A DNA stretch of 64,000 bases. It comes from Spirochaetales bacterium. Its GTDB lineage: Bacteria > Spirochaetota > Leptospiria > Leptospirales > Leptonemataceae. The notes below the pieces were generated by a model that saw only the letters and a program-made list of their open reading frames with translations, had not been told where the DNA came from and searched no databases. The stretch is from NCBI GenBank assembly GCA_015075425.1, contig JABTUL010000001.1:2232001-2296000 (forward strand), given 5' to 3'. Of the stretch, positions 33,099 through 49,421 are shown piece by piece; within the stretch, counting starts at the first letter, position 1, and the number at the start of each line of letters is the position of its first letter. Made by a program: the position numbers and the translations under genes.

Positions 33099-34139
33099 AT
33101 GCTCCGCAAATTCGGCCCGGTCGTGGCGAGTGCCCTTGTTTTCCTTCCCGAAATCCTGCTGCCTCATGAAATCTTCATCCGCGGCGGCCTGGCCACGGGC
33201 GAGCAGCGACCCCATTTTGCTCTATCTCACAAAAAGGACGATCTTTTCGGGAGTGGTCTGGGCGGAGCAACAGATGGCGCATGGAGTGGGACCTGGGGAA
33301 GTGACAACCTGCGAGCGCTCCCCGTGTTTGTCGGCTACGTCCATCCGCAGAACTACTACGCTGGCTTTGACTTCTCATTCCAGGAAAGCAACTTGAGCCG
33401 CAGCTCCATCTACAACACAAGAATTTCCGGAAACGATGGCCAGCTCATGGGCCGCGAAAATCTGGAAAAGTATCGCGAGACGCGACAGGTTATTGAAGCT
33501 GGCTACCGTTTGAATCCGGGATCACTGAGCGTCATTCCCTATGTGGGAATACGGGAGTGGAATGCTTCAGGGAGTCTGACCGGACGCAGCCGGGGTAGCG
33601 GAGCATTCTCCGGACAACGTGAATTTCTCGCCGGTCACATACAGCCGGGTTCCAGACTCAGTCAGGAATCCACAGCACCCGTTGTTGGCCTGCGCGGTCA
33701 GGCAAAGGCCGGTCCGGTAGAGGTTGCCCTGGGTCTGCGATTGTTTGCGGGTAACGGTACCTACCATGAGCGCATCACCACTTCATTCTATAACACGGGC
33801 CTGGGTGTTCTTGCAACGCAAAGCAGCATTCGGCAAACGACAGCCCGGATGAAGGAACAAGGTTTTGAGAGCACTCTGGATCTGGACTACCCGCTGGCAG
33901 AAGGAATCGCGCTTTTTGCCGGCATCGGCTTTGGTATCACGGAAGTCCGCCTGGAAAATTTCAGCTCCATTCACCTGCTGGAACGCGAAAGCTATTTTCA
34001 GGAACGCACGACAGATTCCCGTTCCGATTTTTTTGTCTTTGATGAGGCGGAATTCTTGCACGACCGATTGACCTACGCGAAACAAACGGGGCATTCCTTT
34101 CTCTTGCGCTTCGGCATTGCCAGCAAAATTGGCTTATGA
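33099..34139 (+). CDS. probable outer-membrane beta-barrel protein
   Basis: A 346-residue exported protein. The ATG at 33099 follows AGAGAAAGG and starts the signal-like MLRKFGPVVASALVFLPEILL; the open frame extends further upstream without a plausible start. The mature part alternates aromatic and polar residues in amphipathic strands (LPVFVGYVHPQNYYAGFDFSF, VIEAGYRLNPGSLSVIPYVG, VEVALGLRLFAGNGTYH, LDLDYPLAEGIALFAGIGFG) and ends in FLLRFGIASKIGL, compatible with a barrel. I do not recognise a family. It overlaps the convergent arsS by 6 bp. Confidence 0.65.
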   Translation: MLRKFGPVVASALVFLPEILLPHEIFIRGGLATGEQRPHFALSHKKDDLFGSGLGGATDGAWSGTWGSDNLRALPVFVGYVHPQNYYAGFDFSFQESNLSRSSIYNTRISGNDGQLMGRENLEKYRETRQVIEAGYRLNPGSLSVIPYVGIREWNASGSLTGRSRGSGAFSGQREFLAGHIQPGSRLSQESTAPVVGLRGQAKAGPVEVALGLRLFAGNGTYHERITTSFYNTGLGVLATQSSIRQTTARMKEQGFESTLDLDYPLAEGIALFAGIGFGITEVRLENFSSIHLLERESYFQERTTDSRSDFFVFDEAEFLHDRLTYAKQTGHSFLLRFGIASKIGL

Positions 34140-35120
34140 AATTTCACCGCCGCAGCTTGAGCCGTTGCCGGCCGTGCAGCCAAAGCAATGGCTGGCCGTA
34201 ACAATGAAGCGGCTGGCAAAGCGCTGTGCATCCCAGTCACGTATATGCCCTATGGGATTGGATTTTAACTCCAGCATCTGGTTGAAATCGCAGTCATACA
34301 GACTTCCCTCCCAGCCGATGCTGACCTGGTAGCGGCACATCAGCCCGGCAACTGTGGCCGGATTGTAGGCGGAAACGAGTAGGTCCATGTAATCTTGAAA
34401 CCGGCCGGCGCGGATGAGGCTGTCCAGAAATCGACTGATGGGCATGTTGTTGATGCAGTAAAGAGAATGAAAGAAAATGCCGTAGCGATCCAGGAGTTGC
34501 TTTTTGAACTCCCGCTCCAGTTCCTTCTGGTTGGGAGAAAGAAGCAATCCCGTCGGATTATAAACTAAATTTAGTTTTAATCCTCCATCCCGTCCGTAGC
34601 CGCGGGCATTGAGTTTTTGTAAAGAGTCTATTGATTTGTCAAAGACTCCCTGGCCGCGCTGGCGATCTGTGCGGGCAGCGGCAAAATGCGGCAGGGAGGC
34701 TACGACTTCAACCTCATTGTCAGCTAAAAAATCAAGCAAATCTTCCTGGCCTGGTTCAAACAGCACGGTCAAATTGCAGCGATCTATGACATGCAGGCCG
34801 CGTTCCTTCAGACGAGTCACCAGCCAGCGAAAATCGGGATTGAGTTCAGGCGCTCCGCCTGTAATGTCTGCCGTGGTAACCCCCGGTGTTTGATCCAGAG
34901 CCGTGAGAATCTGCTCCATGGTGGAGCGAGTCATGATCTCCGTACGTTTGGGACCCGCTTCCACATGGCAATGTAAACAGGCCTGGTTACAGAGTTTGCC
35001 CACATTGATCTGAAAGATAGAAATATTGACCGCCTGCAGATTCGAACCCCATGATTCCTGCAGCCTGTCCTGGAAGTTGTAGCTACCCGCGAGCTTTTCT
35101 CTTTGAACGGTTACTTCCAT
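34134..35120 (-). CDS. arsS: arsenosugar biosynthesis radical SAM protein ArsS
   Basis: A 328-residue radical SAM enzyme with the canonical CX3CX2C cluster motif at Cys44, Cys48 and Cys51 (CNQACLHCHVEAGPKRTE), DITGGAPELNP, and a C-terminal cysteine-bearing extension (LMCRYQVSIGWEGSLYDCDFNQML, HCFGCTAGNGSSCGG) typical of the DUF3641-containing ArsS group. ArsS is linked to attachment of a deoxyadenosyl group to dimethylarsenic in arsenosugar synthesis. The gene lies 37 bp after the peroxidase-like gene that usually accompanies it; no arsM methyltransferase is visible in the window. Confidence 0.88.
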   Translation of the reverse strand: MEVTVQREKLAGSYNFQDRLQESWGSNLQAVNISIFQINVGKLCNQACLHCHVEAGPKRTEIMTRSTMEQILTALDQTPGVTTADITGGAPELNPDFRWLVTRLKERGLHVIDRCNLTVLFEPGQEDLLDFLADNEVEVVASLPHFAAARTDRQRGQGVFDKSIDSLQKLNARGYGRDGGLKLNLVYNPTGLLLSPNQKELEREFKKQLLDRYGIFFHSLYCINNMPISRFLDSLIRAGRFQDYMDLLVSAYNPATVAGLMCRYQVSIGWEGSLYDCDFNQMLELKSNPIGHIRDWDAQRFASRFIVTASHCFGCTAGNGSSCGGEIS

Positions 35121-47752: not shown

Positions 47753-48667
47753 CTACAGAAACTGCTTAAAAAAAGCAATGGTCTGCTTTTCTGCGGCTTC
47801 GCTATCCCGATTCCAGGAATCCACATGACGGCCGCCGGGAACAATCCAGACCTGCTCGGGCTTTCGTGCTTCCAGAAGACGCCGGGCATGGTCAACCGGG
47901 ATGACCGGATCTTCCATACCGTGAATCAAAAAAACCGGCCGATTCAAGTGCGCAAAGGCGGACACAGTGTCCAGTCCATCACGGGGAATTCCCGTGCCCA
48001 GGGCAAAAATGGCCGCTGTCAACGGAACGAGAGGATAGCGCGGCAGGAAATAGTCACGCCAGGCGACTTCCGCAAGGAGATCCTCCAGGCGGGCATAGGG
48101 GGCTTCGGCCACGAGGACACGGAGCTGCGGCTGGCGTTCGAAAGCCAGCACAGAAGCCACAGCGCCCATGGAGAAACCATACAGACCCACGGACTTCATT
48201 TTTTTTTGGTCGCGCGTAAAACGAAAGGCAGCCTCCACATCAAATGATTCATGATACCCCATACTGGAAAGAGTCCGGTCACTCTGCCCGTGTCGCCTCA
48301 AATCAAAGGCCAGAATGTTGAGCCCCGACGACTGGTAGGCGCGCATATAACGTAAAGCTGCCCAGCGCCCCGCATGACGGCCATGGACGAAGACAACAGC
48401 GGCAGACGATGCTGCGGGAATCCACCAGCCTTTCAAACCCGTTCCATCCGCTGAAGCAAAAGCCACTTCTTCAAAAGCAAGACCCAGTGCAGAGGGATCA
48501 CCACAATAGTGGTAAAGTGCCTTCTCGGATGGGCTGTTGCAATCGAACTGAGCCGGATGCGCCAGCAGATGAGCGAAGATCAGGGCGACGACAAGACAGA
48601 TGCACAGAACGGCCGTCGACCCGAGAGCGAGGAGCTTGAGCGGACTGCGGATTGAATTCTTCTGCAT
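47753..48667 (-). CDS. alpha/beta hydrolase, membrane-anchored
   Basis: A 304-residue protein with an N-terminal membrane anchor (LLALGSTAVLCICLVVALIFAHLL). The alpha/beta-hydrolase core includes VVFVHGRHAGRWAALRYM, LAFDLRRHGQSD, the nucleophile elbow GLYGFSMGAVAS, the acid in HGMEDPVIPVDHA and the histidine in PGGRHVDSW. It resembles the BAAT/peptidase S9-like family of extracytoplasmic esterases; the substrate is not predictable. It lies downstream of the Cys-rich peptide ORF and its terminator. Confidence 0.8.
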   Translation of the reverse strand: MQKNSIRSPLKLLALGSTAVLCICLVVALIFAHLLAHPAQFDCNSPSEKALYHYCGDPSALGLAFEEVAFASADGTGLKGWWIPAASSAAVVFVHGRHAGRWAALRYMRAYQSSGLNILAFDLRRHGQSDRTLSSMGYHESFDVEAAFRFTRDQKKMKSVGLYGFSMGAVASVLAFERQPQLRVLVAEAPYARLEDLLAEVAWRDYFLPRYPLVPLTAAIFALGTGIPRDGLDTVSAFAHLNRPVFLIHGMEDPVIPVDHARRLLEARKPEQVWIVPGGRHVDSWNRDSEAAEKQTIAFFKQFL

Positions 48668-48736: not shown

Positions 48737-48780
48737 ACAAAAGACGCGACCCGTGAGCTCCCGGATCGCGTCCTTATTTT
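48737..48780. terminator. terminator after the cysteine-rich mini-ORF
   Basis: On the minus strand GACGCGATCCGGGAGCTCAC pairs back with GGGTCGCGTC (7-bp perfect outer stem plus an inner CCG/CGG), followed by TTTTG. On the plus strand the same stem is followed by CTTATTTT. It begins about 10 nt after the mini-ORF stop at 48785, a spacing also seen in leader-peptide attenuators. Confidence 0.65.
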
Positions 48781-48784
48781 CAGT

Positions 48785-48814
48785 TTAGCAACAACCTCCG
48801 CCACATGGACACAT
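48785..48814 (-). CDS. 9-residue cysteine-rich peptide ORF
   Basis: The ORF reads MCPCGGGCC and ends in TAA. An exact AGGAGGTGAT (the complement of the 16S rRNA 3' end) lies 8 nt before the ATG at 48814; the in-frame ATG at 48820 lies inside that site and is less likely. An operator-like sequence, also found at the neighbouring MarR gene, lies about 40 bp upstream, and a terminator follows the stop. Four of nine residues are cysteine. It could be a metal-binding or redox-active micropeptide, a ribosomal leader peptide sensing cysteine supply, or a precursor of something modified. No homologue is known to me. Confidence 0.5.
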   Translation of the reverse strand: MCPCGGGCC

Positions 48815-48850
48815 AGACATCACCTCCTCCGGCCGGGCCGATTTAATTTA

Positions 48851-48868
48851 TTTTTATCATACAAATAT
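48851..48868 (-). promoter_or_regulatory. operator/promoter of the cysteine-rich ORF
   Basis: Read on the minus strand, ATATTTGTATGATA (48868-48855) is identical to 14 bp of the palindrome at the MarR start. It extends to TTTGTAT-G-ATAAAAA, one arm being degenerate. TATGAT inside it is a plausible -10 element. It lies 25 bp upstream of the Shine-Dalgarno sequence of the 9-residue ORF. Confidence 0.55.
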
Positions 48869-48926
48869 AGACTTGAAAAAACAGCGCCGCCCCGCATTGG
48901 ATCCGACTGTTTAATGCTCATCCCGG

Positions 48927-49397
48927 CTAACAACACTGGCCTGCCGAGCAGCAGCTTCCCAGAGAAGCAAGGAGGCACTTCATGCCCCGTCGCGTCTCTT
49001 CCCGGTTCAGCGCAGACGAAAGTGGTTGCAAATGACTCGAAAGACAGCTGAAGAATTCTTCGTGAACACTCCACCCGGCCATAGTCAGATGTAAGCGTGC
49101 TGCCCGGGGGTCACGTTCCGATTTCTCCCTCTTGAGGAGCCCACGTCCGATGAGCGGCGCAATCAGCCGGGTTGTGGTTGAGCTGTCCACCATGAGCACC
49201 TCGTGCAAGGCGGAGAGCTCCAGTGCCCCGTCAGCCTCCGCTACATGATCAAGGACGATAAATTGGGTCAGGGTAATTCCGTTGCAAAAGATTGTCTCCT
49301 GCTGCAAAAGCCGCAGGAGACGCAACATATCGCGGAGCAAAAGATAGCTGCTTCTTTCCGGAGTGGCTGTCAGCCGGCCCATATTTGTATGATACAA
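48927..49397 (-). CDS. MarR-family regulator with cysteine-rich C-terminus
   Basis: A ~156-residue MarR protein: dimerisation helix (SSYLLLRDMLRLLRLLQQETIF), winged helix (LTQFIVLDHVAEADGALELSALHEVL, DSSTTTRLIAPLIGRGLLKREKSERDPRAARLHLT) and C-terminal helices. It ends SLGSCCSAGQCC, a CC-x4-CC tail, with further cysteines at the IFCNG and FFSCLSS positions. Such a tail suggests metal or thiol sensing. A TTG start at 49397 with AGAGG 9-10 bp upstream overlaps the palindrome; the ATG at 49382 directly after it is the alternative. Autoregulation through that palindrome is likely. Confidence 0.8.
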   Translation of the reverse strand: MYHTNMGRLTATPERSSYLLLRDMLRLLRLLQQETIFCNGITLTQFIVLDHVAEADGALELSALHEVLMVDSSTTTRLIAPLIGRGLLKREKSERDPRAARLHLTMAGWSVHEEFFSCLSSHLQPLSSALNREETRRGMKCLLASLGSCCSAGQCC

Positions 49398-49403
49398 AGA
49401 TAT
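49381..49403. promoter_or_regulatory. MarR operator-like palindrome
   Basis: TTTGTAT-G-ATACAAA at 49384-49398 is a perfect inverted repeat, within a wider ATATTTGTATGATACAAAGATAT. It covers the start region of the MarR gene. Fourteen bases recur at 48855-48868 in front of the cysteine-rich ORF. Size and symmetry fit a MarR dimer site. Confidence 0.65.
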
Positions 49404-49421
49404 GGACCTCTGTCCACCTTT

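Follow-up and report, generated by a model that had tools for sequence, protein, structure and literature searches.

A cysteine-tailed MarR regulator and a nine-codon tetracysteine ORF under paired predicted operators in a spirochaete genome: a possible soft-metal(loid)-responsive unit

Our analysis leads us to propose, tentatively, that the MarR-family protein described here may be a soft-metal(loid) repressor of the As(III)-responsive type that controls its own gene and a transcript for a thiol-rich peptide resembling the tail of ArsM; we regard this as a serious possibility that stops short of being probable. More doubtful is the sharper version of this proposal, in which the only output of the unit other than the regulator itself would be a free nine-residue, tetracysteine copy of the ArsM tail, under a sensor from an undescribed MarR group that also occurs at operons for mercury and arsenic methylation.

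Results

The features of the locus, which lies in a 64-kb stretch of DNA referred to here as the window, are collected in Table 1 together with those of related loci. The product of marR matches the Pfam MarR family (PF01047) with 39.6 bits against a cut-off of 24.6, and in its AlphaFold monomer (pLDDT 82.5) helices and wing follow one another as in MarR proteins, making a fairly strong case that it is a regulator. The protein carries Cys33 within the segment FCNGIT and, as the earlier note had read, terminates in CC-x4-CC (SCCSAGQCC); among the 311 window ORFs of at least 60 aa, it alone has at least three Cys among its final eight. In the model, the tail beyond the last helix is of low confidence and probably disordered. 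We have placed the start of the gene at the ATG because relatives point there, which indicates that this codon rather than the TTG is used. The marR mRNA is probably leaderless, with transcription predicted to begin at or near the ATG.

Table 1. Positions of the features discussed (window coordinates unless a locus is named)
Feature	Position	Strand	Remarks
marR	48927..49382	-	151 aa from ATG 49382; TTG 49397 a possible start; stop codon 48927-48929
Operator 1, predicted	49381..49403		ATATTTGTATGATACAAAGATAT; palindrome across the marR -10 and start
marR promoter, predicted	49389..49416	-	TGGACA-16-TATCAT
Operator 2, predicted	48846..48868		second palindrome copy, ~40 bp 5' of the mini-ORF; TATGAT, -10-like, inside
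Shine-Dalgarno sequence	48819..48828	-	AGGAGGTGAT, 5' of the mini-ORF
Mini-ORF	48785..48814	-	MCPCGGGCC*, 9 codons
Intrinsic terminator	48740..48775	-	14-bp stem, T-rich tail, ~-24 kcal/mol
Hydrolase gene	47753-48667	same as mini-ORF	starts ~70 bp past the terminator
arsM of the same genome	L101 1327-2361 (G000 contig C1, about 1443683-1444717)		CCGGGCC tail
16-codon ORF copies	L061, L062, L064/L065, L111		5' of a UbiE-like methyltransferase gene or its remnant
Pseudoknot-like motif after the mini-ORF stop	L066 829-849, L065 6596-6616, L062 6340-6360
Further copies of the motif	IMG/VR loci L112-L192 and named phages

The DNA logic of a two-operator unit is well supported by the sequence itself. 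Operator 1, 23 nt long and almost perfectly palindromic, spans the promoter and start of marR, and a palindromic predicted operator at the regulator's own promoter is conserved in relatives. The earlier note had pointed to 14 identical bases at the start of marR and about 40 bp before the peptide; these are indeed present and are found nowhere else in the genome, with ATATTTGTATGATA occurring exactly twice in 4.13 Mb, both times at this locus. The 14-mer is exact in both operators and belongs to a palindrome of 21-23 nt over which the two sites are 86-87% alike. Its orientation is opposite at the two sites, which is immaterial because it is part of a palindrome. When the palindrome core TTTGTATNATACAAA was searched against the whole 4.13-Mb genome, the marR site had no mismatches, the peptide site had one, and all others had at least two; these weaker sites were about as frequent as those of a reversed control core (142 versus 124). 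Since only two genomic sites match the core with at most one mismatch, the predicted regulon consists of marR and the peptide transcript.

The peptide transcript would be short. A nine-codon ORF with an exact Shine-Dalgarno sequence 8 nt before its ATG, and a terminator directly after it, had both been described from the letters, and both descriptions hold: AGGAGGTGAT ends 4 nt 5' of the ATG, AGGAGG ends 8 nt before it, and the terminator has a strong stem. The Shine-Dalgarno match of 10 nt is the best of the 2037 window ORFs of 5-25 aa, the next independent match being 7 nt, and the full pattern of Shine-Dalgarno sequence, spacing and ATG (AGGAGGTGATNNNNATG) occurs only twice in the whole genome. 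Judged by these signals, the mini-ORF is likely to be translated. Searches of 61 relatives and 393 genomes of the phylum with exact mini-ORF patterns returned the window itself as the sole match. A looser pattern had a single match in viral contigs; this lies inside a larger frame and ends in TGG, and we attribute it to chance.

Orthologues of the regulator are about 40% identical and patchily distributed among other spirochaetes and Syntrophales-type Deltaproteobacteria. Four genomes of the phylum sample carry them (38-43% identical), a scan of genome contigs added metagenome-assembled genomes (MAGs) of Syntrophales, Smithella and Desulfobacteraceae, and none was found in the other genomes of the same class that were searched. 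The patchy distribution suggests spread by horizontal transfer. Searches of plasmids yielded nothing closer than MarR proteins of 32% identity, and searches of viral contigs yielded none. The window protein falls within a cysteine-tailed MarR group at 31-46% identity with invariant Cys columns: every orthologue retains the Cys before helix 2, Cys at the C terminus and the STTTR motif in its DNA-binding domain. The spacing of the tail differs among them (CC-x4-CC, CC-x3-CC or CxC), as would be expected if the tail were a flexible ligand arm. Every orthologue with sequence available there has a palindrome of the TTGTA-n3-TACAA type whose end lies 2-5 nt 5' of the marR ATG, and most relatives have a marR promoter of the form TTGAC-16/17-TAnnnT. 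Because palindrome and promoter abut the ATG, the orthologous mRNAs are probably leaderless as well.

In the Deltaproteobacteria group (L068-L075), inspection places hgcA directly 3' of marR, together with hgcB, and the operator lies over the promoter. One representative pair (L068) was scored with profiles and exceeded the curated cut-offs, at 460 bits versus 275 for HgcA and 111 versus 99 for HgcB. The cysteine-tailed MarR upstream of hgcA in MAGs of Syntrophales and other Deltaproteobacteria is thus a candidate regulator of mercury methylation. Among spirochaetes, one (L063/L067) has a second operator 5' of arsM (342 bits, cut-off 263), and in three others (L062, L065 and L066) the second operator lies 5' of a 16-codon, Cys-containing ORF with the consensus MKRF[ST][IL]PR[VI]AHC[CF][NG]G[AS]. 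Around the hgcA-like genes in G131 and in G139 no operator was found, and Rfam gave no match on the relatives' loci.

The 16-codon ORF is very probably translated, to judge from its codon pattern: across the three operator-linked copies and a fourth (L111), the variable columns number 6, 2 and 11 at the first, second and third codon positions, and synonymous changes make up 28 of the 49 codon differences between pairs. A UbiE-like methyltransferase gene lies 3' of the ORF in two of the three spirochaetes, and L065 retains a scrap of the gene. The fourth copy, which is the second in its genome (G131, C46:88200), precedes a related methyltransferase gene with no visible MarR operator, so the ORF may be a methyltransferase leader rather than a partner of MarR. 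Selenocysteine read-through of its stop codon was considered and rejected, as TGA, TAG and TAA all occur. Relatives give a divided answer to whether the mini-ORF and second operator accompany the regulator: three spirochaetes retain both a second operator and a mini-ORF with Cys, and the Syntrophales relatives have a single operator followed by marR and hgcA, where inspection by eye showed no comparable mini-ORF. The relatives' mini-ORF is also a different peptide, placed before a methyltransferase gene or its remnant, and MCPCGGGCC is found in none of them.

As a separate observation, the stretch 3' of the 16-codon ORF is an instance of a widespread short motif, GTCCY-stem5-N-GAC-NN-TAAAC-stem5. 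Its seed pattern was found in 81 IMG/VR stretches, compared with 13 for a permuted control. In a search that did not require the stem, all five stem pairs could form in 22 of 24 non-seed copies, compared with 35% when the 3' arms were shuffled. Pairing is possible between GTC plus the base preceding it and GAC plus the base following it (55 of 74), which suggests that the motif forms a small pseudoknot. It is mostly intergenic or 5' of tRNAs, with up to eight copies per stretch (L123, L187), its stem covaries, and in named phages it sits in unannotated gaps. The motif is absent from the window, matched no Rfam family and was not found in paper text; this covarying element, common in phages, is apparently undescribed.

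The genome itself offers an arsenic context. Its own ArsM, encoded about 0.84 Mb from the locus, ends in SPDSACCGGGCC (SACCGGGCC), and since this tail reads CCGGGCC the mini-peptide is nearly a free copy of it. A decayed ArsR fragment just before arsM ends in NPGGCC, and ArsM and ArsR of Bacteroidota plasmids likewise end in paired-Cys tails. No operator was found at this arsM and no hgcA was detected in the genome; the window marR is akin to its orthologue group in sequence and in the layout of its promoter, but unlike that group it adjoins neither arsM nor hgcAB. ArsS, a radical SAM protein of arsenosugar biosynthesis, is encoded in the window at 34134-35120 on the minus strand, 14 kb from the locus (TIGR04167, 428 bits versus a cut-off of 300).

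Discussion

We envision a scenario in which metal-free MarR would occupy operator 1, repressing its own gene, and operator 2. An ion binding to the cysteines of MarR (Cys33 and the CC-x4-CC tail) would release the DNA and open the second promoter. The resulting transcript, about 110 nt long, would end at the terminator, and its sole evident product would be the very strongly initiated MCPCGGGCC. The peptide, free and carrying four thiols, could then serve as a ligand resembling the CCGGGCC end of this cell's ArsM, binding the ion and thereby buffering it, handing it over to ArsM or to export, and resetting MarR. In this scheme we infer repression, the identity of the ligand, translation and the function of the peptide, the last from its resemblance to the ArsM tail; by analogy, MarR could work in the manner of an ArsR-type metal(loid) sensor. 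A soft metal(loid) as the class of ligand is moderately supported, with As(III) the most likely and Hg(II) or organoarsenicals possible. Peptides of nine residues are usually short-lived through degradation, which counts against a functional MCPCGGGCC. The earlier proposal that regulator and peptide form one thiol- or metal-responsive unit thus stands in part: the two good operators of the genome both lie here, the MarR group is tied to hgcAB and arsM, and the peptide resembles the ArsM tail, but the pattern of mini-ORF and operator in relatives is mixed.

The mini-ORF could instead be a leader peptide. A ribosome that stalls over the four Cys codons, or because metal has bound the nascent chain, would then permit read-through into the hydrolase gene. 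The order of a short ORF with a strong Shine-Dalgarno sequence, a terminator and a same-strand gene fits an attenuator, the relatives' 16-codon ORF precedes a methyltransferase gene even where the operator is missing, and metal-sensing nascent peptides are known, as in CutF (PMC9973294). However, the terminator was kept in every fold and no competing antiterminator was found, which makes attenuation less likely; in addition, the downstream gene encodes a generic alpha/beta hydrolase without a known link to Cys or metals, and relatives have no such gene in an equivalent role. On balance we consider a leader function unlikely.

A regulatory RNA or a remnant, in which the original target (arsM or a methyltransferase gene, such as relatives have) was lost and a short transcript left over, seems similarly improbable. 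Such loss is exemplified by L065, with its mini-ORF and mere methyltransferase scrap, the ArsR before the genome's own arsM has likewise decayed, and MCPCGGGCC was conserved nowhere among the genomes searched. A remnant would nevertheless make the strong Shine-Dalgarno sequence and its distance from the ATG, the density of Cys in the ORF and the likeness to the ArsM tail all coincidences, and Rfam shows nothing at the window locus that would argue for a regulatory RNA. OhrR-type regulators of the MarR family detect oxidants through cysteines, and the OhrR model scores weakly on the window protein (29.7 bits, cut-off 200). Peroxide or disulfide stress might accordingly oxidize Cys33 and the tail, with the peptide serving as a sacrificial or relay thiol. 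Orthologues, however, sit on arsM and hgcAB and not on peroxidase genes, and the type of tail is one common to ArsM and ArsR of metal operons; we think a thiol/disulfide switch of this kind very unlikely.

If the soft-metal(loid) model is correct, ribosomes would make functional nine-residue metal chelators under dedicated control, a class of peptides overlooked entirely by gene finders, and MCPCGGGCC might be the smallest of the encoded peptides that buffer metal(loid)s. The group of conserved-Cys MarR proteins is also found immediately at hgcAB. How these methylmercury genes are regulated, and what natural purpose they have, is still under debate, and the operators found here make the question of MarR control of hgcAB directly testable. 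The adjacency of MarR and hgcA is in part already known; as far as we have checked, the conserved cysteine-tailed group with its operator, the arrangement of two operators and a mini-ORF, and the stand-alone 9-mer are new.

In Dethiobacter alkaliphilus and in Geobacter daltonii, MarR genes have been reported upstream of hgcA (PMC10349881), and the relatives described here similarly have a MarR-type regulator directly upstream of the mercury-methylation genes, whereas in the window genome the predicted target is the mini-ORF. Regulation of hgcAB by an arsenic-responsive ArsR has also been reported (PMC10349881). The ArsR proteins of ars operons and hgcAB resemble the window regulator in their C-terminal paired Cys, their link to arsM or hgcAB and probable derepression by metal(loid), but the window regulator has the MarR fold and family and another operator, and for it the metal(loid) ligand is our proposal. 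Leader ORFs of the CutF/CruR type are alike in being small, Cys-containing and linked to metal; they differ in being longer or exported and in controlling the gene next downstream, whereas the window mini-ORF is followed by a terminator. The tail of Cys-tailed ArsM is nearly identical to the mini-peptide, although in ArsM it belongs to an enzyme and MCPCGGGCC would be a free 9-mer. Compared with MCPCGGGCC, bacterial metallothioneins are much bigger and not homologous, phytochelatins are made non-ribosomally and the biarsenical tetracysteine tag (CCPGCC) is synthetic; what all of these have in common with the mini-peptide is a dense array of paired Cys suited to soft metals and arsenic.
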